Origin: Elusimicrobiota bacterium
Lineage (GTDB): Bacteria > Elusimicrobiota > Elusimicrobia > UBA1565
Direction of reading: 5' to 3'
Assembly: GCA_016196755.1 (NCBI GenBank)
Contig: JACPXC010000019.1
Span: 62,001 to 126,000, forward strand
Length of the DNA: 64,000 nt
Position numbers and translations under genes: made by a program. Within the stretch, counting starts at the first letter, position 1, and each line of letters starts with the position of its first letter. The notes beneath the pieces are model-generated. The model had not been told where the DNA came from. It did no database searches and worked only from the letters and a program-made list of their open reading frames with translations. Shown here one piece after another: positions 7,445 to 20,075 of the stretch.

Positions 7445-8443
7445 CTACGCGTCCACCGCCTTGCAGACGATCCGACCCGACGCGTCGGCCTCGAAGGTCA
7501 CGCTCTTCGCTTTCTTGTCGCGCATCTCGACGAGCGACGGGGCGAAGATGTCGAAGAGGATGCGCTCGAGTTCGCGGATGCCGAATTTGCTCACCTTGAC
7601 GTTGGCTTCCAGAGCTTTCATGACGAGCTCGGGTGCCACGAAGCGGACCGACAGGCCGTACTCCTTGCCGAGCTTGGCGATCTTGAGGAGCGCTATCTCG
7701 GCCACCACCATGCCCTCGAGCGGCTTGAACATGTAGACCTTGTCGATGCGGCCGAGGATCTCGGGCCGGAAGGTCCCCGATTCGGCCAGCAGGGTCTTGA
7801 GGGCGTTTACGACCTCGTGGTAGTCCTTCATCCCCTTGGTGGCGCGCGACATCTGGTCGGCTATGGCGTTGCTCGTCAGGACGACGATCGACTGCGTGAA
7901 GTCCGCGGTCTTGCCGGAGCCCTGCTCGCTCAGGCGCCCGTCGCCCAAAAGCTGGAGGAGGAGGTCGAACACCAGCGAGTGGGCCTTCTCGATCTCGTCG
8001 AAGAGGATGAGGCGGCGCGGGTTGGCGAACATCGGGCGGGTCAGCTGGCCGCCGGTCTCCGAGTCCCGGTAGCCCGACGCCGAGCCGGTCAGGCGCGCCT
8101 TGGCCATCTCGGGGTTCGAGAGCTCGGAGCAGTCGAAGCGGATCATGTCGCGCTCGTCGCCGTAGAGGAACTCGGTGATCGCCTTGGCCAGCTCGGTCTT
8201 TCCGGTGCCGGTGGGCCCGAGGAACAGGAGACTGCAGATCGGCCGCTGGCGTTCCTGCTTTTTCCAGCTCAGGCGGATGAGCTTGGCCACGTCGTTGAGG
8301 ATCTCGTCCTGACCCTTGACCCGCGCTCCGAGGTGGTCCAGGAGCTTCCCCTCGTCGACCTCGCGGCTCTTGTCGCCCAACTCCGAGTCGGCGATCATGC
8401 CCTTGAGCTTGCTCCAATCGGTCATCTTGTCGAGCTCTGACAT
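7445..8443 (-). CDS. Single-module ClpB/ClpA D2-like AAA+ ATPase (cytosolic)
   Basis: 332 aa. One AAA+ module of the Clp D2 kind: Walker A 'GPTGTGKT' (about 76-83), Walker B 'LILFDEIEKAH' (about 145), sensor 1 'VVLTSNAIAD', an arginine-finger region 'FRPEILGRIDKV', then a small C-terminal helical domain. The N domain, D1 module and coiled-coil arm of ClpB are absent, and no ClpP loop is evident. It should unfold or remodel a protein partner using ATP. Its partner may be the second, membrane-bound ATPase of the same operon (9503-10621), which has the same module. Confidence 0.85.
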   Translation of the reverse strand: MSELDKMTDWSKLKGMIADSELGDKSREVDEGKLLDHLGARVKGQDEILNDVAKLIRLSWKKQERQRPICSLLFLGPTGTGKTELAKAITEFLYGDERDMIRFDCSELSNPEMAKARLTGSASGYRDSETGGQLTRPMFANPRRLILFDEIEKAHSLVFDLLLQLLGDGRLSEQGSGKTADFTQSIVVLTSNAIADQMSRATKGMKDYHEVVNALKTLLAESGTFRPEILGRIDKVYMFKPLEGMVVAEIALLKIAKLGKEYGLSVRFVAPELVMKALEANVKVSKFGIRELERILFDIFAPSLVEMRDKKAKSVTFEADASGRIVCKAVDA

Positions 8444-8460
8444 CTAGCCTCCTGCCGCAT

Positions 8461-9501
8461 TCATTGCGTCGGCTCCGGGATGGACAGGCCGTAGTTGTCC
8501 TTTCCCTTCACGGTGATCTTGCCGGCCAGCCCGGGCTTGACCGCGATGGCCCCCATGCTGAGCTCGAGGAACCGGCTGTTGTCGACGGTCAGCATCCCCG
8601 CTCCGACGAAGCCCACCCCGCACTGGTTGCGCTGGAGCAGGACGTTATCGAGCTTGACCTGGGCGTCGCCGAGGCGCACGCCGCAGCCCTGGTTGTCGCG
8701 CAGCTCCGAGCCGGATACGCTGACCTCGGCCCCGGTCAGCGCCAGGACGCCCGAGGAGCGGCTCCCGGAGACCGTGCTGCGCGAGAGCCTCACCCGGGCG
8801 AAGCGGCTCACGGCCAGGCCCGTGCCCTCCGGCGACTCGAGGCGGCCGCGCTCGATGGCGACGTTCACGTCGCTGCCCGTCGCCGTGACCGCCGCCTCCC
8901 GGCCGGTCACCGAGGTCAGCTGGATCGAACCGCGCGCGCCGGCCTCGATGAGCACGCCCACGCGCCCGGAGATCTCGGCCGAGACCAGCTGGAGGTTCGA
9001 GCCCACCGCCCAGACCCCTGTACCACTCGAGCGGATGGTCACCTGGCGCGTGGCCACCGTGCCGCCCGAGGCGTAGACCGCCGCGCCCCCGGCGCCGCCC
9101 TCGTTCTCGACGGTGAGGTTGATGAGCATGGCCGAGACCCCGGAGACGGTGATCGTCCGCGGCCCCGCGGCCGAGATGACGACGTCGTCCGGGGAACTCC
9201 CGCCGCCCCGCAGGACGACGTACTTCGTGAGCTCGATGGGCCCGGCGTAGCGCCCGGGCGGCAGGACGACCGTGGCCCCGGCGGCCGCCTGCGCCACCAG
9301 GGCGGCCAGGTCTCTCTCCGCGCGCACCGCGGGGCGCACGGGCGCGGGGAGCGGCGCCGCCGGCGGGGCCGGGGCGGGAACCGCGGGCGGGGAGGTGTAG
9401 ACCCCCGCCGCGTAGCTGCGGACGGTGTAGATCCCCGAGATCAGGGCCAGGATCGCCAGCGCCTGCACCCAGGCGTCCTCGTAGGCGCGCGGTTCGGCCA
9501 T
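8461..9501 (-). CDS. Membrane-anchored right-handed beta-helix protein
   Basis: 346 aa. A hydrophobic segment near residues 12-30 acts as an uncleaved anchor, followed by a Pro/Ala linker and then a long repetitive domain rich in Val, Ser, Thr and Gly with the rungs of a parallel beta-helix ('TVVLPPGRYAGPIELTKYV', 'VLRGGG', repeated 'S-G-x-G-V'). Such folds occur in pectate lyase-like enzymes and in passive carbohydrate- or protein-binding scaffolds; I see no clear catalytic residues. It lies one nt after the membrane AAA+ gene and 17 nt before the second ATPase gene, so it works in the same system. Confidence 0.75.
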   Translation of the reverse strand: MAEPRAYEDAWVQALAILALISGIYTVRSYAAGVYTSPPAVPAPAPPAAPLPAPVRPAVRAERDLAALVAQAAAGATVVLPPGRYAGPIELTKYVVLRGGGSSPDDVVISAAGPRTITVSGVSAMLINLTVENEGGAGGAAVYASGGTVATRQVTIRSSGTGVWAVGSNLQLVSAEISGRVGVLIEAGARGSIQLTSVTGREAAVTATGSDVNVAIERGRLESPEGTGLAVSRFARVRLSRSTVSGSRSSGVLALTGAEVSVSGSELRDNQGCGVRLGDAQVKLDNVLLQRNQCGVGFVGAGMLTVDNSRFLELSMGAIAVKPGLAGKITVKGKDNYGLSIPEPTQ

Positions 9502-9502
9502 A

Positions 9503-10621
9503 TCAGCAGCCCGCCGCCGAGATGCGCTGGGTCGCCGCGTCGAGCTCGAGGCGGACCTTGCGGTAGCCGTCGCGGCGCGCGGCCTCGATCGACGGCGTCG
9601 TCATCTCCTGGATGAGGCGGGCCACCTGGCGCACGCCGTAGTCGCTGAACTCGACGTTGCGGCGCACCGCCTCGACGAGGATCTCCGGCGAGGCGTAGTC
9701 GACCTCGATCCCGAACTGGCGCCAATGCCGGGCGATCTGCAGGCAGGCCACCTCGGCGATGGTGACCGGCGGCAGGGTGTCGAGGAATAGGATCTCGTCG
9801 AACCGGGCCAGGAAGGGCTTCTCGAAACCGCAGCGCGCCAGCGCCTCGCGCGCCCGGCCGGTCCGGGTCAACGGGTCGGAGGAGTCGGCCCAGATCGGGC
9901 GCAGGGCCTCCACCCCGGCGTTGCAGGTGGCAAAGAAGACGGTTGCGCCGAAATGCACGGTCTTGCCCGAGCTCTTCTCGCGGCACAGGCCGGTGTCGAG
10001 GATGTCGTAGAGGCAGTGGCGGACGTCGGGATGGGCCTTGTCGATCTCGTCGAAGATGACCACCCGATAGGGGGATTCGAGCACAGGCCGGGTCAGGGCG
10101 CCGCCCACCTCGAAACCGGGGTGGCCCGGCGGCGGACCCAGCAGGGTGAACACGTCGGCGTGGTCCTTGTACTGGTTCATGCGCAAAAGGACGGGCTCCT
10201 CCTCCGGGTAGATGGTCTTGGCCACCAGCTGGGCCATGAAGGTCTTGCCGGTGCCGGTCGGGCCGGCCAGGAGGAAGGAGCCCAGCGAGCGGCCGGGGCC
10301 GGCCAGGCGCAGGCCGCGCTGGATGCGGGTCAGGACCTGGTCGACGGCGGCGTCGTGGCCGCGCATCTCGCGCTTGATGCCGGGGGCGCAGATGAGCACC
10401 TCGCCGGCGTGCAGGCGCTGGAAGTCGACGGCCGCGTCGGCGCTGACCTGCTTGCGGCGCTCGCCGCGCAGCATCAGCAGGCGGGCCAGCAGGCCCACCG
10501 TGCTCACCGCGAAGATGATCGGCATGCTGAGCGGGAAGATCGAGTTGAGCTTGTGCAGCCCGGTGACGATGCCCACCAGAGCCAACAGGAGGAAAAAGGG
10601 GTGCAGGGTCATCGGTCCCAT
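9503..10621 (-). CDS. Membrane-anchored ClpB-D2-like AAA+ ATPase
   Basis: 372 aa from ATG 10621. Two hydrophobic segments at the N terminus (about 6-21 and 30-48) anchor it, then a linker and one AAA+ module: Walker A 'GPTGTGKT' (120-127), Walker B 'VVIFDEIDKAH', sensor 1 'FFATCNAG', a finger region 'FLARFDEILFLD' and a small C-terminal domain. A longer frame (to 10657) exists, but it would overlap the promoter TGGACA-N17-TATAAT, whose predicted start site falls on ATG 10621 itself. ATG 10612 is the alternative. It heads a five-gene operon running to 5938. Confidence 0.8.
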   Translation of the reverse strand: MGPMTLHPFFLLLALVGIVTGLHKLNSIFPLSMPIIFAVSTVGLLARLLMLRGERRKQVSADAAVDFQRLHAGEVLICAPGIKREMRGHDAAVDQVLTRIQRGLRLAGPGRSLGSFLLAGPTGTGKTFMAQLVAKTIYPEEEPVLLRMNQYKDHADVFTLLGPPPGHPGFEVGGALTRPVLESPYRVVIFDEIDKAHPDVRHCLYDILDTGLCREKSSGKTVHFGATVFFATCNAGVEALRPIWADSSDPLTRTGRAREALARCGFEKPFLARFDEILFLDTLPPVTIAEVACLQIARHWRQFGIEVDYASPEILVEAVRRNVEFSDYGVRQVARLIQEMTTPSIEAARRDGYRKVRLELDAATQRISAAGC

Positions 10622-10627
10622 CGCTGG

Positions 10628-10656
10628 ATTATAGACGGGCACCGTAAGGCTGTCCA
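10628..10656 (-). promoter_or_regulatory. Sigma70-type promoter of the AAA+ operon
   Basis: On the minus strand TGGACA (10656-10651), a 17-nt spacer and a perfect TATAAT (10633-10628). Six nt separate the -10 box from ATG 10621, so the transcript would be leaderless or nearly so. The divergent gene at 10679 starts 23 nt beyond the -35 box. Confidence 0.75.
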
Positions 10657-10678
10657 CGTGGCGAGCACCGCTCCGGTT

Positions 10679-11731
10679 ATGCCAGACTTTCTCATGCTCC
10701 TAACGGCGCTCATCCTACTCCTGGCAGGACCCGGCGCGGCCCAGCAGGACCCGACCGCCGCCGAGGACGAGACGCTGGTCCCCTGGACCCCCACGCAGGC
10801 CCCGGCGCGGCCCGTTCCGACCACCGAGGCCGTGGACCCGGCCCCGATCGGCCTGGACGCCTTCGCTCCCCGCTTCGGCGGCGACCGCAAGGCCTTCAAC
10901 CGAGAGCTCAACACCAAGCGCGACGCCGTCCTCCAGGCCCTCTCGCGCTTCACCAAGAGCGAGGGCGGCCGATTCGCCGACCTCCCGATGCTCGTCCTCC
11001 AGGGAAAGAGCCTGGTCGGCAAGGAAGTCGTCACCGCCGGCGCCCCGTTCTTCATCAACCTCCACGGCAGCCGGCCGAACCTGACCCTGGGCGACCACTT
11101 CGGCTCCGGGGCCCGCATGGCGGTGTCGATCGCCGGCCTGTCCGAAACTCAGCGCAAGGAAGTCCTGCGCTCGGACAACCTCAACAATACCTTGGCCGCC
11201 GTGAAGGGCCGGCTGGCGGTGACGCCCAAGGGGGAGCGCTATCTGGAGGCCTCGTCCTATGTCCGCCTCGGAGAACTGCCCACCAGCGTGGCGTTCTCCC
11301 AGGTCGTGCGCCAGCGCCTCCCGCTCGAGCCTACCGACGCGCCCGCCGTCCGCGGCCTCATAGACGCCGCGCGCGAGCGGCTCAAGCGCGAGCGCGGCCA
11401 CCGCTACGTCCCGCTCGAGGACCTTATCCTGGCTCCGTCGCGCTACAAGGGGCAGGACGTCTCGACGCTGGCCATCGCCGACCAGCCCGTGGCCACGGAG
11501 AAGGAGGCCTTCTTCTCCGCCCAGAACTACTGGGGGTCGCGCAGCACCATCCAAGTCCTCCTGAGCCGCCTCCCCTCCGAGGCCCAGATGGATGTTTTCC
11601 GTACCGCCTTCCCTCCAGCCGTGTTCGCCATCAAGGCGCAGGTCAGGACCACGTCGCAGGGGGCGTATTTCCTCGAGGCCGCGAAGGTGACCCGGGTCGG
11701 GCCGCTGGCGCCGCTCAGGGAGCTGCCGTAA
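10679..11731 (+). CDS. Secreted two-half (OB-like) protein, paralog 3 of 3
   Basis: 350 aa. Signal peptide 'MPDFLMLLTALILLLAGPGA', then a linker with 'VPWTPTQAPA' as in paralog 2, then two similar halves: 'LVGKEVVTAGAPFFINLHG' to 'RYLEASSYV', and 'YKGQDVSTLAIADQP' to 'GAYFLEAAKVTRV'. Phrases such as 'GKEVVTAG' and 'SQGAYFL' are shared with the copies at 3822-5941. It is divergent from the AAA+ operon and shares its upstream region, while the other two copies converge on the operon's end, so the operon is framed by its likely partners or substrates. No strong ribosome site is visible. Function unknown. Confidence 0.75.
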   Translation: MPDFLMLLTALILLLAGPGAAQQDPTAAEDETLVPWTPTQAPARPVPTTEAVDPAPIGLDAFAPRFGGDRKAFNRELNTKRDAVLQALSRFTKSEGGRFADLPMLVLQGKSLVGKEVVTAGAPFFINLHGSRPNLTLGDHFGSGARMAVSIAGLSETQRKEVLRSDNLNNTLAAVKGRLAVTPKGERYLEASSYVRLGELPTSVAFSQVVRQRLPLEPTDAPAVRGLIDAARERLKRERGHRYVPLEDLILAPSRYKGQDVSTLAIADQPVATEKEAFFSAQNYWGSRSTIQVLLSRLPSEAQMDVFRTAFPPAVFAIKAQVRTTSQGAYFLEAAKVTRVGPLAPLRELP

Positions 11732-13571
11732 AGCCGGCCGACAGGATAGGAAACCGAAACCACCCCCGCGGGTCCAGACTCTCGTCATCTAGGTGGAACG
11801 ACGGGGCGTAGCGCTCCCGCTTCCACTGGTTCCGGCACCAGAGCCGGTAGAACTTCCCCACCCACGTCCTCAGGCGCTCCGAATCGCACTCCGGGAATTC
11901 GACGGCTACGACGGCGGCAGTCTCCTCCGGTCCTCGCTTGTCGCGCACGAACGCGCGCTCGATGGCGTCGAGCACCGGATAGGGCATCAGATCGCCCTCG
12001 GAAGTCTGTCCAGGCTTGAGCTCCGGCGACGGCTTGAGCTTGGCGACTGACGCCAGAGCCGGGATCGCTCCCAGTCCTTCGGGACCAGTCGTTCCCATCC
12101 ACTCGAGCCAACGGAGCAAAAACGCCTTGTCGATGCCGGCGATCGGCGCCAGGCCGCCGGCCGTGTCGCCGTCCATCGTCGCATAGCCTACCGCGGCCTC
12201 CGATCGGTCGCTCGTGCACAGGAGCAGGGCGTTGCGCGCGTTAGCCAGGAGCCAGGGCCCCGGCGCCCTGACGCGCGCCTGGATGTTCTGAAGGGTGATG
12301 TCGTCGTCATCCCACGTGAGCGTCCGTCCCAGCGCCTTCTCGGCCCGTTTCGTGAAGCCCGCGACCAGGTCGTCGACCTCCCATTCCACGTGCGTCGCCC
12401 CCAACTCCGCCGCCACCGTGCGCGCCGACGCCCGCGTCGCCGGCGAGCTATGCTCCGTGCCCTGGAACACGGTCAGGAGCCCATCCTTGCGCCGCTCCGG
12501 CCCGAGCGCCAGCGCCGCCAGCGCCGCGGTCGCCGAGGAGTCCGCGCCGCCCGACAGCGACACGACGAACCCCGAACAGCCGCTCTTGCGCAGGTAGTCG
12601 CGAAGACCCAAGCTTACCGCGCGCGTGAACTCCTCCTCCTTGAGGCGCGGGCTCCGCTCCCAAGCCGCCAATGCCGGCGCCGCGGCTTTCGACGCCGCCA
12701 ACGCGGGCCAATCGAACGGGACGGAGACTGTCCCCTCGCCGCCCAGCTCCGGCTTGAACGAAGCCGTCTTCGCGCGCAGCATCCGGTTCACCTCCACGTC
12801 GACGTCGGCCCAGACGAGGGTCCCCTCCTCGCTCGAGAACCTCTCCCCTTCCGCCGCCACCGCCCCGGCCGTGGCGACGAGCAGAGCCCCGTCGTAGATG
12901 ACCCGCCCCGCCTCGTTTCCCAGCAGGTTCGCGTAGGCGTAGGCGACCCCGAACGCCCGCGAGCCCTCGGCGACGAAGCGCCGACGGGTCTCCTGCTTGC
13001 CGAAGGCGAAATGGCTGGCCGAGGGGTTGAGCAGGATGTCGGCGCCGCGCCTGGAGAGCGAGCCGCCGGGCCGCGCCGGCACCCAGGCGTCCTCGCAGAC
13101 CTCGAAGCCGACGCCCACCCCGCCGACCACGAGCAGCAGGTCGCCCATCGGCACGCCTTCGTGCAGGACCCGGGCCCCCGCCGGCCAGGCCTTGAACCAG
13201 CGCGGCTCGTAGTGGAGGCCGTCCCCGGCCAAGTTCTGCTTTGGGACCAGCCCCTCGAGCTTGCCGTCGACGAGCAGGGCGGCGGCGTCGAACAACGCCC
13301 CGCCGTGAAAGACCGGCAGGCCCACGCCGACCGCCATGCCTTCGGTGGCCGCGGCCAGCGTCTCCAAGGAGCGCCAGGCCGCGCGCTGGACGGCCGCCAT
13401 GTGGAAGGCGTCCTCGCAGCCGTAGCCCGAAAGGGCCAGTTCCGGCAGGCAGAGGATACTCACGCCGGCCGCTCTCGCTTGTTCCACGGCCTCTAGGCAG
13501 CGGCGCAGGTTTCCGGACCAGTCCAGCGGCGTCTGGTTGAGCGCGGCCGTCGCCAGCCGTATGAGCTTCAT
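11715..13571 (-). CDS. nadE: Glutamine-dependent NAD+ synthetase
   Basis: 618 aa, two domains. The N-terminal nitrilase-like glutaminase has the E-K-C triad: Glu44 ('[12 protein letters not shown]'), Lys111 ('VPKQNL') and Cys159 ('FEVCEDAW'). The C-terminal synthetase domain carries the P-loop 'SLSGGADSS' (near 340) and a conserved '[15 protein letters not shown]' segment. It makes NAD+ from deamido-NAD+, ATP and glutamine, the last step of the salvage route. It is the last gene of the seven-gene operon and overlaps pncB by 4 nt. The domain lengths are normal and no key residue is missing. Confidence 0.95.
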
Positions 13572-14932
13572 GGCGCGGCTTCCTCTAAGTCGAGCTCGAG
13601 GCTGACCGGGTAGACGCGCGGGGACTTGAAGCGCAGGAGCTCTTTGGGCAGCAGTGCCAACTGCGTCTTGGCACGGGCACGGATGGCCGCCAAGTCGGGC
13701 GACGGACAGACCCGCTCGCCGTTGCGGAACACCGGCACGAGCAGGTCCTCATAGGGACTCTCCCCGTACGGCGGGCACCCGAGCAGGTCGAAGATGGCGT
13801 CATGGGAGGGGCGGCCCTCCTTGAAGAAACGCCGGACCTGCAGGGCCCCGGGATAGGACGATTTGCCCGCCTCGCTCGAGATCTTGCGGGTCCGCCGCCA
13901 CTCGCCGTGGAGCGTCTTTATCGCCGAGAGCTTATATACCCCGCCCAACGCCGCCTGGTCGCCGCCCGTGACCAGCCGGGTGCCGACGCCCCAAACGCCT
14001 ATCGGCGCCCCCTTCTCGACGAGTTCGGCGATACGATGCTCGTCTAAGTCGCTCGAGGCCGTTATCACCGCGTCCACGAATCCCGCCTCATCGAGGATGC
14101 GCCGCGCCTTGAGGCTCAGGTCGGCCAAGTCTCCCGAGTCGAGGCGCACGCCCGCCAGTCGGCGTCCGCGAGCCTTGAGCCATTCCCCCACCTCGACGGC
14201 ATGCCTGACGCCGGCTAAGGTGTCGTAGGTGTCGACCAGGAACGCGCAGTCGCCGGGCATCGCTTCGGCGTAAGCCTGAAAAGCCTCGAGCTCGTCGCCG
14301 AAGGCCATCACCCAGGAATGCGCATGCGTCCCGCGGACAGGGATCCCCAAAAGCTTGCCCGCCAGGAGGTTCGAGGTCGCCGCACACCCTCCAATATAGG
14401 AGGCCCTGCTTGCGCTCACCCCCCCGTCGACGCCCTGGGCGCGCCGCAGGCCGAACTCGAGCACCGGCGCCCCGCCGGCAGCCGCGGCCACGCGGGAGGC
14501 CTTGGTGGCGATCAGGGTCTGGAAGTTCATGATGTTGAGCAAGGCCGTCTCCAGGAGCTGGCACTGCAGGAGCGGCCCCTGCGCGCGCATCATCGGCTCC
14601 GGAGCGAAGATCGCCGTCCCTTCGGGGACGGCGTCTACGTCAAGCGAGAGCTTGAGGCCCTTGAGATAGGCGAGGAAGCCCGGCTCGAAGAGCCCCAGCG
14701 ACTTGAGGTAGGCCAGGTCGTCCTTCGTGAATCGGAAGGCCTCGATGTACTCGGCCGCCAAAGCCAAGCCGCAGGCCACGGCGTAGCCGCCGCCGAAGGG
14801 GTTCTTTCGGAAGTAGAGCTGGAACACGGCCTCGTCGTCGTGCCGGCCGGACTTCCAGTAGCCCTGCGCCATGGTCAGCTGGTACAGGTCCGTGAGCAGC
14901 GACAACGACGTGCCGTAAAGAGACCCGATCAT
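13568..14932 (-). CDS. pncB: Nicotinate phosphoribosyltransferase
   Basis: 454 aa. The N terminus ('[15 protein letters not shown]') and the region around '[20 protein letters not shown]' are diagnostic for bacterial NAPRTase; the catalytic-His region is recognisable in '[15 protein letters not shown]', and '[13 protein letters not shown]' is the PRPP-side motif. It converts nicotinate and PRPP to nicotinate mononucleotide, usually with ATP hydrolysis. The frame is open upstream, but ATG 14932 gives the exact family N terminus and an ATGA overlap with the kinase gene. No NaMN adenylyltransferase (nadD) is in the window, so that step must be encoded elsewhere. Confidence 0.95.
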
Positions 14933-15780
14933 AACCCCTCCATGCCGACGACGTGCAGCGGATGCTTCGACAGGCGGACCTCGGCCTGCGCGGCGAACGT
15001 GAAAGGCGTCTCCTCGAGCGAGTCGACCGCCACGATGCCCTCGGCGTCGTTGAGCGAGCGGACCTTGAGCGTCCGGTCCTTGGTGAGCACCCCCCGGCCC
15101 AGGCGCAGGCGCCCCCCTCTCGGGAAGGGCTCGGTCAGGACCCAGCGCGCGTCGGCCGTGAAAGGCTTCCCGTAGTGTCCGTACCAGCCCGTGGAGCCCG
15201 CCGGCGTGCTGACCAAGAGCCCCGAGGACTTGTGCTCCTCCTCGAGCTCCCCGACCCTCAGCACGTGCCGGCTCATGTGCTTGCGCTGCCGCTCGCCGAT
15301 GAAGAGCTCGCTGGTGGCCAGGCCGGCGAAGCGCCCGCCGACGCGCACCTCGAGCCGCGGCCACGCCGACACGCTCCCCCAGCCCGCGCGCAGCACGTCG
15401 GAGGCGGCCTCGAGCTGGCGCTCGTCGAGCTCGAGCAGCCCCCCGTGGCTGCGGACGCGGTCGGCGTTGACGCCCAGGATCGGCGCCTTGCGCAGGAAAT
15501 GCGAGACGTAGATGAAGTGGTTGTCCCCGCCCAGCGCGATGACGAGCGAGGCCTTGTCGATGCCGGCATCGACCATCTCCCGAGGGACCACCCGGCACTC
15601 GGGGAAGAGCTCCAACAGGCGCTGGCGGACGGCCAACTGCCTGTCGTGGGAGTCCACGATGACCCCCGCGCGGTCCCGGTACCAGGAGAGCAGCCTCTGG
15701 CGCGACCAGCCGAGACGCCGCTGGTCGTACTCGAGCTTGCTCTCCTTGGGCACCAGGACCGCGCGCCGCAGCCAGTTCAT
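14929..15780 (-). CDS. NAD kinase-like protein (atypical GGD motif)
   Basis: 283 aa. The NAD kinase core is visible: '[10 protein letters not shown]' (GGD at 84-86) in the place of the usual GGDGT, 'ILGVNADR' for the NxD segment, and '[15 protein letters not shown]', the hallmark S-T-P-x-G-S-T strand. The enzyme phosphorylates NAD(H) to NADP(H). The replacement of GGDG(T/N) by GGDNHF is unusual and could alter phosphate-donor use. The start at 15780 gives a 4-nt overlap with the vWA gene. Sitting between salvage genes and a signalling triad, it suggests joint control of NAD and NADP pools. Confidence 0.8.
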
Positions 15781-16559
15781 GGCGTCCCGAACCCGCCCAC
15801 CGAGGCCGTGGTGAACTGCCCCGCGCCCTGGCTGGCCCGCACCGCCGACTGCGAGAACACCGCGAAGGCGCGACGGATCTCCCCGGCCCCCGCTCCGGGG
15901 GTCAGGATCCATTTGTCCTCGATCCCCATCTCCCGGAAGACCTTCCGGAAGTCGGTGCTGCCGTCGTCGACGCCCAGCGCCGCCACGATGTGGCGCTCGG
16001 CGCGCAGCAGGTCCTTGACCAGCGCCGCCACGTCCTTGGCCTTCGAGCGCGAGGAGCCCTCGTCGGCCCCGTCGCTGAGCAGCAGGGTCACGGTGCGCGC
16101 CGGCACGCCGGCCTCGGCGAACTGCCGGCACTTGGCCAGCACCGTCCCCAGGAGCACCACCGCCTGGTCATACAGGGGCGTCCCCAGATTCGGGTCGAAG
16201 TTCTTCGAGTCCATACGCACCGCGCCCGAGAGGCCGCAGTACGGGTAGAGCACCGTCCCGTTCAAGTAGCGGGTGTGCACCAGCACCCCCTCCTTGGACT
16301 TGGAGCCCGCCAGGGCGTCGAGCACGTGGTTGTGCCCGTCGCGCAGGGCCTGGGCGTTGCCTCCGAAACGTATGGAGCCCGAATCGTCAGGCATCATCGT
16401 CACCAGCAGGACCTCGCTGGCGGCGACGTCGTCGGGCAGCACCCCCAGCCCGGCCTGGATCTGCGCCCCCAGGTCCGGGATCGACAGGGCCGACATCGCG
16501 GCGTCGGACAGCTCCCCGTCGGCCTTCGCTCCGTTAAACAGCTCTTTCGGGTCGTTCAT
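15777..16559 (-). CDS. vWA-domain protein (TerY-like)
   Basis: 260 aa. A von Willebrand A domain with a complete MIDAS start, D-D-S-G-S ('[13 protein letters not shown]', near residue 55), a later Thr-containing loop ('NLGTPLYDQ') and the Asp loop '[12 protein letters not shown]'. The fold binds a divalent metal and partner proteins. Cytoplasmic, no signal peptide. With the PP2C and kinase genes of the same operon it matches the TerY-P triad described in tellurite-resistance-like signalling systems (family knowledge). It starts 11 nt after the hydrolase gene and ends in an ATGA overlap with the NAD kinase gene. Confidence 0.85.
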
Positions 16560-16570
16560 GGCATCCCCCC

Positions 16571-17629
16571 CTACAGCTCGATCCCCGGCCACGACTCCAC
16601 CGGGTCCGTCGACTTGACCAGCCGCATCCCCGCGTCGGCGAAGCGCTGGAAGGCCGCCTCGGCCTGGGCGGTGAAGTCCGCAACGAAGCCGCCCTTGCCG
16701 TCCGGCACCGTCACCGCCGACATGCAGTCGGTCAGGATGTAGACCTTGCGCGCCAGCGCCGGGTCCTGGGCGAGGATCTCGCCCAGCAGGTCGTCGATCG
16801 AGCTTTTCACGCAGTGGCTCGACGCCTGTCCCGCGATGACGACCGCGTCCGACGACAGCAGGGTCTTGAGGAACAAGGAGTTCCTCTGGGCCAGCGGCGC
16901 CCCGTCGTGGCGCGTCAGCACCTCCGGGCGCAGCACCGAGTAGTTCTCGGTCAGGGCGTTGCCGCCCTTGACCTCGACCCACGACTGCGCCCCGCGCACG
17001 AAGGAATGGAACATGCGCGCCTCGTGCAGGACGCCGGTCAGGGCGTGACCATCCGAGCCCAAGAGGCAGTGCGGCGGCCAGAGGTAGAGCTTGTATTTCC
17101 CGGCCTTCTCGAGCTCGGTGCAGTAGTGCAGGGCCTGCTTCACGAGCCAGGAGTAGTTCCCCCCGCACAGCCACTTGGCTACCGCCGGCGACGGCCGCAC
17201 CTCCCCGCGTCCCACCTCGTCGGCGGTGATCTCGCGGAACGCGCCCAACGGGCGGTCCTCCCGGTCGATCCAGAACGACGGGAAGAAGATCTGATAGGCG
17301 AAGTGCGTGTCCATCGTCGTCGTCACGTTGGTGATCCGACCCAGCTCGCGGTACATGAACTCCGCGATGCGGCGGCTGTCGGCGATCGCCCCCTGTCCCG
17401 AGCGGCCCGCGACGTAGAGCGTGCCCCCCGGGAAGCAGAAGTCCTTCTGCGCGTCGATGAGGAGGAGATGGATGCCGAAGCGGTCCGAGGCCGCGGGCAG
17501 GATGCCCTGGCTCCGGCGCCACTCCGACGCCTCCGTGAAGAGCTTCTGCTGGTCCGGCCGGTACTCCCACCTCGCGGCGTTGGCCGGGTCGTAGAACCCC
17601 GGCAGGGCCGACGGTGCCTTGACGATCAT
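16571..17629 (-). CDS. Nicotinamidase-like cysteine hydrolase (isochorismatase fold)
   Basis: 352 aa, much longer than ordinary PncA (about 200). Catalytic Asp59 is in 'LLLIDAQKDFCFPGG', a metal-binding D-x-H follows in 'TTTMDTHFAYQ', the Lys is in 'VEVKGGNALTENYS', and the nucleophile Cys with its cis-peptide motif is in 'VIAGQASSHCVKSS'. The extra length is an N-terminal extension of about 50 residues plus inserts. Nicotinamide deamidation to nicotinate would feed directly into pncB and nadE of the same operon, which is why I prefer nicotinamidase over other isochorismatase-fold hydrolases. ATGA overlap with the kinase gene. Confidence 0.75.
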   Translation of the reverse strand: MIVKAPSALPGFYDPANAARWEYRPDQQKLFTEASEWRRSQGILPAASDRFGIHLLLIDAQKDFCFPGGTLYVAGRSGQGAIADSRRIAEFMYRELGRITNVTTTMDTHFAYQIFFPSFWIDREDRPLGAFREITADEVGRGEVRPSPAVAKWLCGGNYSWLVKQALHYCTELEKAGKYKLYLWPPHCLLGSDGHALTGVLHEARMFHSFVRGAQSWVEVKGGNALTENYSVLRPEVLTRHDGAPLAQRNSLFLKTLLSSDAVVIAGQASSHCVKSSIDDLLGEILAQDPALARKVYILTDCMSAVTVPDGKGGFVADFTAQAEAAFQRFADAGMRLVKSTDPVESWPGIEL

Positions 17630-19386
17630 ATGCGCGCCTCCTGTTTTACTTCGAGTTTGACGACCTCGCGGCGGTTGGCGGCCATCAGGCCGCCCGCTCC
17701 CGCCGCCAGCCGGGTGCTGGCGTCCACGAACGGCTCGGTCTCCGAGTATTCGACCGCGCCGCAGAGCGTCTCCGTGACCCGGACGATGCCGCGGTCGGTG
17801 GGGATGAAGAGATGGGCGCCGGCCGCGCAGGCCCCGCGCGCACCCTCGAGCCAGGGAGCGTCGTCGATGCTGGCCTTGACCGCCCCGTCCTTGCCGACGA
17901 CGACCAGCCGCCGGGTCAGCGTACCGCCGCGCTCGAGCTCGAGGGTGAGCCAGGCCAGCCCCGCGCCGAACTTGCAGTCGGCGTGGAGCAGGCGGCCGCG
18001 CATGGCGGGCAGCTGGACGCCGTCGGCCAGGCCGCGGCGATGCGCGTCGAATAGGAAGGCCACGGACACGCCCCCGGCCCGGTAGAAGCCAAAGCCGAAC
18101 TCGGGGCCCGCCCAGAGCCGGGTCTGCCCGGCCAGCACCTCGCCGAAGCGCTCGTCGCCGTGCGCGCCCTCGCGCCAGAGCGCCCCGTCGCGCTCCCAGT
18201 ACGAGCGGCCGCCCGCGAAGGCCACCGCCTCGTCCTTGCCCACCGCCATGGTCTGCTTGCCGTGCAGGAAGTAGCGCGTCCCGGGACGCAGCGGCCCGCG
18301 CAGGGCCACCGTCCCGTCCTCGCGCCGGAACTCCCCTCCTTCATAGACGAGCCAGCCGTCGGGCGAGACCGCCACGACCTCGCCGTCGGTGTCGAGCAGG
18401 CGGGTGGCGGTGACCGCCCCGCGCACCGTGACGACGCGTTTCTTGCCCGCGGCCCCCGGCAGGGCGCAGGCCGGGCAGGCCGCGCGCGCGTGGGTCAGCC
18501 CGCAGGCCGCGCAGCGCGTCCAGCGCAGGTCGTCGAGCAGGGGGCGAGGGAACGGCCCGCGCCGGTCCTGGACGAAGGTCTCGTGGAAACGCTGGAGCAG
18601 GTCGTCAGGCAGGACCTTCCAGGGCAGGGCCGCCTTGGGGACCTTCACGCGCGGGTCGAATATGGTGACGCGCTGGAGCGCGCGGTCGCAGGGCCGGCCC
18701 CCGCCTGGCAGGACGCCCCCGTAGGGATGGACGTAGAGCAAACACTGGAACAGGAGGGTCTCGAAGGCGTACCAGTCGCTGGCGCTGGTATGGCAGGCGG
18801 TGAGCCGCAGGGCGTTGGGCTCGCAGCAGAGCGGGTCGACGAAGCGCTCGGTGTAAGCCAGGCAAGGATGGGGGCCGAACTGGAAGCTGTCGGCGTCGAT
18901 GAGGTGGGCGAGGCCGCCCGCCGCGAGGACGTTCAAGTCGTTGAAGTCCCCGATGACCACCCCGGCCTCGTGCACCCGGGCCACCGTGGCCAGCAGGTCG
19001 GTGAAGAGCGGGGTCAGCGCCGCCGGGGGGATGGCGCGCCGGAAGGCCGGCTCGGCCCAGCGCAGCAGGGGCTCGGCGTCGCCGATGAGCTTCATCGTGT
19101 AGCCGGCGGCCTGCCCCTTGCGGTCGAGCGCCACCTCGAGCGGGGCCACGACGCGCGGCGGGAGAGCCCTCGGGAACTCGCGCAGCTTCTGTCCCCGGGT
19201 GGCCAGGCGCTCGCGCGCGGCGCGCTGCTCGTCGGGCAGGCCGCGGTAGTCGGGGTGGTCCGGTCCCTTGTAGAGCTTGAGCGCCAGCCCAGAGCCGATG
19301 TCGTAGACGTCGGCCTCGCCGCCGGAGCCGATCAGGGCCGAGGGCGCCAGGCGCAGGCGGCGGCCGCCGAGCATCACCTCATTCAT
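17626..19386 (-). CDS. Protein kinase-like protein with zinc ribbon and C-terminal beta-rich domain
   Basis: 586 aa. N-terminal kinase fold: Gly-rich loop 'IGSGGEADVYDI', the ATP-binding Lys in 'LALKLYKG', catalytic loop 'VIGDFNDLNVL' (Asp and Asn in the right spacing, but no classical HRD), and 'LIDADSFQF' where DFG would be. Then a zinc ribbon 'CAACGLTHARAACPAC' (about 290-305), then about 270 residues of beta-rich repeats that resemble a propeller. This kinase plus ribbon arrangement is the kind found in TerY-P triads. It probably phosphorylates a protein in this operon, opposed by the PP2C encoded just upstream. ATGA overlaps on both sides. Confidence 0.8.
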   Translation of the reverse strand: MNEVMLGGRRLRLAPSALIGSGGEADVYDIGSGLALKLYKGPDHPDYRGLPDEQRAARERLATRGQKLREFPRALPPRVVAPLEVALDRKGQAAGYTMKLIGDAEPLLRWAEPAFRRAIPPAALTPLFTDLLATVARVHEAGVVIGDFNDLNVLAAGGLAHLIDADSFQFGPHPCLAYTERFVDPLCCEPNALRLTACHTSASDWYAFETLLFQCLLYVHPYGGVLPGGGRPCDRALQRVTIFDPRVKVPKAALPWKVLPDDLLQRFHETFVQDRRGPFPRPLLDDLRWTRCAACGLTHARAACPACALPGAAGKKRVVTVRGAVTATRLLDTDGEVVAVSPDGWLVYEGGEFRREDGTVALRGPLRPGTRYFLHGKQTMAVGKDEAVAFAGGRSYWERDGALWREGAHGDERFGEVLAGQTRLWAGPEFGFGFYRAGGVSVAFLFDAHRRGLADGVQLPAMRGRLLHADCKFGAGLAWLTLELERGGTLTRRLVVVGKDGAVKASIDDAPWLEGARGACAAGAHLFIPTDRGIVRVTETLCGAVEYSETEPFVDASTRLAAGAGGLMAANRREVVKLEVKQEARI

Positions 19387-20039
19387 GGCAGCCTCCGGAT
19401 GACGGCCGCGGTGGCGTCGTCGGCCAGACGCTGGAGCTTGAGGGCCCGGCGCAGGAGGTCGGGGTTCTTGAGGAAGCGGTCTTCGGTCCAGAACGGGGTC
19501 AACTCGCCGTCCGCCGCCCCGTCGGTGCCGACCAAGACGCGCTCAGCGGGCCCTTGGTAGAGGCGCTGAAGGCCCACCGCGCCGTCCTCGAGGCCGTAGG
19601 CCAGATAGGGCGGGGCGTTGCCTGGGAACGGGCCCAGACGCGTCACGTTCCCGTCCACGACGGCCACCCCGTCGCCGCAGGCGAACACCGTGGCGGTCTC
19701 CCCGGCCAGGGCCGCGCCGACGATCGTGAATAGGAAGTGGGCCCGGAAATCCAGCCCGGCGGTCTCCGCGATGCGGCAGAGCCCGCCCAGGACCTCGCCT
19801 CCCAGCGCCGCCAAGTCGAGGCTTCCGGTCGTCTCGAGCTGACGTGCCGCCGCGCGGGCCGTCAGGGAGGCCCCCAGGGCCGCCCCCAGGCCGCTGCCCG
19901 GCTCGGAGCCGCAGCCGTCGCAGACCACCGCCACGGCGCCCCAGGGGCCCTGCCGGAGGCCGCAGGCGTCCTGGTTAGGACGCTCGGCGAGGAGGTGGAG
20001 TCGTCCCGGGGTGGTGCCCGCGGCGAGTAAGTGTCTCAT
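19383..20039 (-). CDS. PP2C-family protein phosphatase
   Basis: 218 aa. Short PP2C domain: 'RPNQDACGL' (the early Asp), 'VAVVCDGCGSEPGSGLGA' (the D-G-x-G metal motif), 'FACGDGVAVVDG' and 'VLVGTDGAADGEL'. It should remove phosphate from Ser/Thr residues using two metal ions, and is the natural antagonist of the adjacent kinase. The start at ATG 20039 is preferred over an upstream in-frame codon (20060), because the promoter's -10 box ends only 8 nt before it; the mRNA would then be leaderless. It is the first gene of the NAD/TerY-P operon. Confidence 0.8.
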   Translation of the reverse strand: MRHLLAAGTTPGRLHLLAERPNQDACGLRQGPWGAVAVVCDGCGSEPGSGLGAALGASLTARAAARQLETTGSLDLAALGGEVLGGLCRIAETAGLDFRAHFLFTIVGAALAGETATVFACGDGVAVVDGNVTRLGPFPGNAPPYLAYGLEDGAVGLQRLYQGPAERVLVGTDGAADGELTPFWTEDRFLKNPDLLRRALKLQRLADDATAAVIRRLP

Positions 20040-20040
20040 A

Positions 20041-20057
20041 TACACCATTATGGTGTA
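20041..20057. promoter_or_regulatory. Operator-like 17-bp inverted repeat
   Basis: TACACCAT-T-ATGGTGTA: two perfect 8-bp arms around one base. It covers the -10 box (20047-20052) and the predicted transcription start of the NAD/TerY-P operon, so a bound repressor would block transcription. NAD operons are often repressed by palindrome-binding regulators such as NrtR or NiaR; which protein acts here cannot be told. Confidence 0.7.
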
Positions 20058-20075
20058 CAATTGACACTATGTCAA
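20047..20075 (-). promoter_or_regulatory. Promoter of the NAD salvage/TerY-P operon
   Basis: Minus strand: perfect TTGACA (20075-20070), 17-nt spacer, CATAAT (20052-20047), then 7 nt to ATG 20039. Confidence 0.8.

Follow-up and report, generated by a model that had tools for sequence, protein, structure and literature searches.

Bacterial immunity relies centrally on destroying NAD, and the known phage counters to NAD depletion are enzymes without a known signalling layer. We describe here a cassette in which NAD salvage enzymes are coupled to a kinase, a phosphatase and a vWA protein, found in a 64,000-nucleotide stretch of the metagenome-assembled genome of an Elusimicrobiota bacterium (assembly GCA_016196755.1, contig JACPXC010000019.1, positions 62,001 to 126,000 of the forward strand) that is referred to below as the window. 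Among the closest described systems are the regulons of NrtR, an ADP-ribose-responsive repressor according to its NCBIfam name, which normally govern NAD salvage. Phages can also reconstitute NAD themselves, through NARP1 (Adps/Namat) or through salvage by NadV, NadM and NadR, as described in PMC12774641, PMC9503650 and PMC7824862. The TerY-P triad is composed of a kinase, a PP2C and a TerY-like vWA protein (Anantharaman 2012, as described in PMC11090510).

Seven head-to-tail genes on the minus strand span nucleotides 20039 to 11715 of the window and encode, in the order of transcription, a PP2C, a kinase with a zinc ribbon, a nicotinamidase (PncA), a vWA protein, an NAD-kinase-like protein, PncB and NadE. 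The genes overlap (ATGA-type) at five of the six junctions and are separated by an 11-nt gap at the remaining one, and are therefore coupled. An earlier note on this DNA had described NAD salvage enzymes "fused in one operon" with a TerY-P-like triad; all seven genes are present where it placed them, as separate adjacent genes rather than as a fusion. The main finding is that the kinase/phosphatase/vWA switch is nearly inseparable from the nicotinamidase in about 100 diverse huge-phage loci, to which the bacterial chromosomes add an ADP-ribose sensor. The cassette is real, widely conserved and unexpected, and the mechanism proposed for it below is plausible.

As in phage NAD reconstitution, enzymes that build NAD are phage-encoded and have Nudix, NADAR and other ADP-ribose genes nearby. 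Unlike NARP1 and NadV/NadM/NadR, however, the cassette belongs to the deamidating (Preiss-Handler) route PncA-PncB-NadD-NadE, and unlike the known phage NAD systems it comes with a kinase/phosphatase/vWA protein switch. Neither nicotinamidase nor TerY is mentioned in the searched passages of two surveys of phage NAD systems (PMC9503650 and PMC7824862); the novelty is more limited for the enzymes than for the switch, and phage pncA and pncB genes may have been noticed earlier. The likeness to NrtR regulons lies in a Nudix-winged-helix repressor gene associated with pncA, pncB and nadE beside a conserved operator, while the differences are that the controlled operon includes the triad and that operator and NrtR are matched by association only.

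The cassette has the composition of a TerY-P triad, i.e. the same three protein types with intact catalytic motifs and metal ion-dependent adhesion site (MIDAS), and the order vWA-PP2C-kinase is common to most viral loci. In the window the nicotinamidase gene sits between those for the kinase and the vWA protein. Of the C-terminal zinc ribbon or OB fold that defines TerY-P kinases, the ribbon is found in the window kinase and the related viral clade and is absent from most other aligned viral kinases; the cassette kinase bears in addition a C-terminal all-beta domain, unlike TerY-P. Canonical TerY-P triads with the same composition are present on Rhizobium, Sphingomonas and Sinorhizobium plasmids. 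The canonical proteins are remote but significant homologues (2e-7 to 2e-13 for the vWA protein and 2e-27 to 8e-37 for the kinase), and their kinases split off on a long stem of their own (3.1 changes per site, support 100), outside the clade of the cassette. The cassette triad is tied to a nicotinamidase, whereas TerY-P is tied to tellurite-resistance, McrBC/CoCoNuT or HxsABC genes. These comparisons indicate that the cassette triad resembles TerY-P in its parts, yet belongs to a distinct, distant branch, and we do not file it as TerY-P; what the earlier note had called TerY-P-like is so in parts and composition, and not in membership. The rhizobial-plasmid TerY-P triads (L228, L231) adjoin hxsABC genes of a His-Xaa-Ser radical-SAM system.

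The similar gene composition and the patchy chromosomal presence would also suit a TerY-P-type defence, in which infection is sensed by the triad and the nicotinamidase serves as effector or as source of a signal, for instance by depleting nicotinamide or through a nicotinate-derived signal. According to PMC11090510, such triads accompany defence systems, and some protect against phage on their own. On the other hand, no PADLOC model matched the core proteins apart from marginal matches of the kinase and PP2C, and the main carriers are phages, often encoding the rest of the NAD pathway, so that we regard this explanation as improbable.

The core is defined here as the nicotinamidase, vWA, PP2C and kinase genes. 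The window vWA protein, used alone as the query, had no matches among plasmids and phages. The nicotinamidase query identified four phage records, each with the triad genes alongside; three of the four are huge phages, 462-595 kb in size. A scan of IMG/VR with a nicotinamidase alignment produced 79 loci, 68 of which have all four core genes on one strand, in two main gene orders, and reciprocal viral scans with two kinase alignments produced 95 loci, with the nicotinamidase in 90 and all four core genes in 88. When the loci from both search routes were pooled, some contigs having been found by both, all four genes were present in 156 of 174, and 99 of these remained distinct after reduction at 95% identity. 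Chance adjacency of the core genes was considered and rejected on the basis of this reciprocal linkage and of a control, in which twelve 20-kb non-cassette stretches of two of these viral contigs gave one match, a PncB. Furthermore, the distance matrices of the four core proteins co-diverge (Mantel r 0.91, 0.89 and 0.82, permutation maxima <0.17). The linkage between nicotinamidase and triad is near-obligate, and a neighbourhood survey of the kind proposed in the earlier note shows that this linkage is not confined to this genome: triad and nicotinamidase occur together in eight more Elusimicrobiota genomes (one decayed) and in about 100 non-redundant viral loci. The core is absent from every cultured phage in a collection of 50,697 records, which would explain why PHROGs gave no useful match to the core proteins.

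Among 42 whole virus records, PncB was found in 30, NadE in 26 and a HIGH-family nucleotidyltransferase in 27, the last being an upper figure because PF01467 covers other enzymes too. By intersection of the tables, 19 records have all three and hence a complete nicotinamide-to-NAD set; the one viral HIGH nucleotidyltransferase examined is NadD according to NCBIfam. A terminase (phrog_2) is present in 20 of the 42 records, some of which hold close relatives of the window copy. The core is encoded on phage genomes together with enzymes leading to NAD. Genes recurring near it, counted as clustered homologues with one representative scanned per cluster, are those for NMNAT-Nudix (10 loci), NADAR (6), NadD (6), WGR-PARP (5), RNA ligase and Thg1, and these neighbours fit the NAD/ADP-ribose conflict networks of phages described in PMC9503650. 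The interpretation in the earlier note is borne out in part. Its idea that such a module could counter NAD depletion gains support from the huge-phage distribution, from the NADAR, PARP and NMNAT-Nudix neighbours and from the ADP-ribose-responsive NrtR described below, the link to phages being stronger than had been guessed.

The WGR-PARP genes beside the core, and the frequency with which the four genes occur without adjacent PncB and NadE, could instead reflect removal of nicotinamide, which would otherwise inhibit phage ADP-ribosyltransferases or PARPs as their product, with PncB and NadE as optional additions. The proportions of whole virus records that encode PncB and NadE point to a completed NAD route, and we give this alternative only a small chance.

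Several of these neighbours deserve mention in their own right. A NADAR-domain gene lies near the core in L045 (5832-6533) and in five other viral loci. A protein with WGR, PARP regulatory and PARP catalytic domains is encoded near the NAD cassette in L096 (6087-7487), and also in L054, L057, L058 and L086; phage contigs thus encode a poly(ADP-ribose) polymerase of eukaryote-like type. A linear Variovorax plasmid of 801 kb has a nicotinamidase-vWA-NAD kinase group accompanied by Nudix and macro genes, and PP2C-kinase-PncB at a distance of 22 kb (L022 6528-12774 and L229 5058-9097). This plasmid may be a phage-like element, because its kinase branches with phage kinases.

The window PncB and NadE were identified beyond doubt, and PP2C clearly, by Pfam and NCBIfam. 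The nicotinamidase, NAD-kinase-like, vWA and kinase proteins scored below the cut-offs of these collections, the last two below every Pfam cut-off; the vWA protein was identified through motifs and family alignments, and the kinase through these plus structure. In PP2C, residues D24, D41, D123, D173, D207 and D208 are invariant in the family alignment and the metal-binding Asp residues are intact. The GGE loop, K, GDxxxxN and D motifs of the kinase are kept across 17-29 diverse homologues. Its AlphaFold2 (AF2) model has a predicted local distance difference test (pLDDT) value of 88 and its best Foldseek matches are protein kinases; the modelled fold consists of a protein kinase domain, then the zinc ribbon, then the all-beta domain (about 318-580). 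The nicotinamidase residues D59/K221/C273 and D107/H109/H187, which correspond to the catalytic triad and the metal site of PncA structures, are invariant in 32 diverse homologues, and the top 24 PDB matches of the AF2 model (pLDDT 94.9) are all nicotinamidase chains, ahead of any other amidase. By its D-K-C triad and D/H/H metal site the protein is assigned as a nicotinamidase, with nicotinamide hydrolysis as its predicted activity. The vWA protein keeps a full MIDAS (D58, S60, S62, T127 and D163). The gene that the earlier note had listed as NAD kinase encodes an NAD-kinase-like protein, the activity of which is less certain because GGDN replaces the GGDG of NAD kinases. The window NadE has a 59% identical homologue in the cassette of another Elusimicrobiota genome, G335.

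Of 295 genomes of the phylum, 7 contain the vWA protein; these belong to a single order, and two genomes of the same genus lack it; a further genome with a weak match (5e-6) and internal stops was left out of the seven. Beyond these, there is one more full cassette (G335) and a decayed one (G283), and the nine cassette genomes referred to below are thus eight with full cassettes, including the window genome, plus G283. A search of a collection of genome contigs with the kinase identified one relative. The order PP2C-kinase-nicotinamidase-vWA-(NadK)-PncB is kept among the Elusimicrobiota cassettes, and their nicotinamidase and vWA proteins are 76-83% identical; a comparison of the flanks of seven of the loci revealed no neighbours in common. 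With order and identity kept and the flanks unrelated, the Elusimicrobiota copies show the pattern of a mobile accessory cassette. In G283 (L232 9381-11660) the operator and NrtR are present and PP2C, kinase, nicotinamidase and PncB are each found only as fragments, by decay or misassembly.

The nicotinamidase tree places the Elusimicrobiota proteins together, as a single group within the viral sequences (supports 94-99) and next to the contig L031, and the kinase tree agrees with weaker support. Contig L031 carries terminase, DnaB, ERF and YqaJ recombinase genes and has the same high G+C content as Elusimicrobiota; housekeeping families were absent among the Pfam matches of its 42 scanned proteins. 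Exchange between huge phages and Elusimicrobiota, in one direction or the other, is likely on the evidence of these trees. The window region in its present location was also considered as a prophage and rejected, as a terminase (PF03237, phrog_2) was unmatched genome-wide and the flanks consist of TPR and AAA genes.

One strong promoter-like site lies directly before PP2C (TTGACA-17-CATAAT, 11/12; mean of 0.2 in shuffles), and this promoter, with three AGTGT/ACACT boxes, precedes PP2C in every one of the nine cassette genomes; the operator element reads TTGACAwAGTGT. The operator pattern occurs once in the window genome and at most twice in each of the others, with 0 expected in window shuffles. 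In the window (20039-20075) as in the other eight genomes, only 8 nt separate the end of the -10 hexamer from the start codon of PP2C, and because of this short distance the operon transcript may be a leaderless mRNA. Second copies of the operator precede an SPFH (Band 7)-NadK-like operon in three genomes, and this operon is joined to the cassette itself in G277 and G210. The SPFH/Band 7 gene is followed by a divergent NadK-like gene (GQDG/GPDG) at L213 1561-3022, L216 2-1461, L217 2-1461, L014 6604-8426 and L017 17-1871.

A gene for NrtR (Nudix plus winged helix; PF21906, 9.7e-25) is present in 8/9 cassette genomes vs 0/47 others of the order (Fisher 6e-9), and adjoins the operator or the cassette in several of them. 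NrtR was also found in three phage loci, and a Nudix protein of the same cluster on the Variovorax megaplasmid. This association suggests that NrtR probably binds the cassette operator. Cleavage of NAD yields ADP-ribose and nicotinamide, so that one reaction would deliver both the operon's inducer and its first substrate.

The host genome also encodes NadA and a canonical second NadE; NadD is missing from the operon, as reported, while NadD-type genes (PF01467 matches) lie elsewhere in the genome. Since NadA and a second NadE are found elsewhere, the operon is an accessory route. Its PncB is the only one of the genome (sole PF17767 match), and order-wide NadA is present in 49 of 56 genomes and PncB in 13, so that the cassette equips organisms relying mostly on de novo NAD synthesis with nicotinamide/nicotinate salvage as well. 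These facts, and the usual role of NrtR regulons, would also agree with ordinary host salvage of vitamin B3, i.e. an NrtR-regulated pncA-pncB-nadE operon that acquired a signalling triad unrelated to phage conflict. That the triad is tied to the nicotinamidase and not to the whole pathway, that most members of the family found here are in huge phages, and that the bacterial copies are patchy with unrelated flanks all argue against this explanation, which we consider unlikely.

We think it rather probable that the locus is an inducible NAD-restoring cassette with a TerY-P-like phospho-switch, common to huge phages and bacteria. PncA would deamidate the nicotinamide that NAD-cleaving enzymes release, PncB would couple the nicotinate to PRPP, a NadD encoded outside the operon would carry out the adenylation, and NadE the amidation; NADP may come from the NAD-kinase-like protein. 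In Elusimicrobiota, transcription would start from the one conserved promoter, with the operator probably bound by NrtR; ADP-ribose, the other product of NAD cleavage, is established as releasing repressors of the NrtR family, and NAD destruction would thus itself induce the cassette. The kinase and PP2C would act as a reversible phospho-switch to which the vWA protein would contribute metal-dependent docking. The most likely target of the switch would be the nicotinamidase, because this enzyme opens the route and no other metabolic gene is tied to the triad nearly everywhere. For huge phages, the most likely role of the core during infection is to restore NAD or remove nicotinamide and so to counter NAD-depleting defences, and copies have probably passed between such phages and bacteria. 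As a more tentative proposal, which we hold at somewhat less than even, huge phages carry an undescribed phosphorylation-controlled NAD-restoring system, with the nicotinamidase and the kinase/PP2C/vWA switch as its near-obligate core, as a counter to NAD-depleting immunity; bacteria would have taken it over and placed it under the control of an ADP-ribose-responsive repressor.

Several points weigh against the NAD-restoring cassette as set out here. Only about a third of the viral loci have PncB and NadE close to the core, and in several viral records, some of which are fragments, PncB or NadE went undetected. In the window genome the NrtR gene is on another contig and not near the cassette, and the presence of NadA means that the cassette may serve ordinary vitamin salvage in this host. 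The phospho-switch could have a target other than PncA, and the scheme is drawn from sequences and predicted structures. If true, it would mean a regulated viral NAD economy, and the poorly understood TerY-P-like triads would gain a concrete biochemical partner, with a directly testable function.

The features of the window operon are collected in Table 1.

Table 1. Genes and control element of the NAD cassette, in window coordinates.
Feature	Position	Strand	Basis
Promoter and operator, TTGACA-17 bp-CATAAT with AGTGT/ACACT dyads	20047..20075	-	Same element before PP2C in 9/9 cassette genomes
PP2C-type protein phosphatase, 218 aa	19383..20039	-	PF13672 1.4e-14
Ser/Thr-kinase-like protein, 586 aa; kinase domain, CxxC...CxxC zinc ribbon, C-terminal all-beta domain	17626..19386	-	Motifs, family alignments, structure
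Nicotinamidase, PncA family, long form, 352 aa	16571..17629	-	Invariant active-site residues and AF2 fold
vWA-domain protein, MIDAS DxSxS...T...D intact	15777..16559	-	Motif, family alignment; start codon at 16559
NAD-kinase-like protein	14929..15780	-	Matches to NAD kinase models of NCBIfam (best 2.9e-9), under their cut-offs
Nicotinate phosphoribosyltransferase PncB	13568..14932	-	NF006695 3.7e-161, TIGR01513 5e-156
Glutamine-dependent NAD synthetase NadE (CN hydrolase and NAD synthase)	11715..13571	-	Pfam and NCBIfam; second copy in genome

Upstream of the operon there are several genes for TPR proteins, and downstream of it, at 7448-10657 of the window, a gene for a beta-helix protein is flanked by two genes for ClpA/ClpB-like AAA ATPases.

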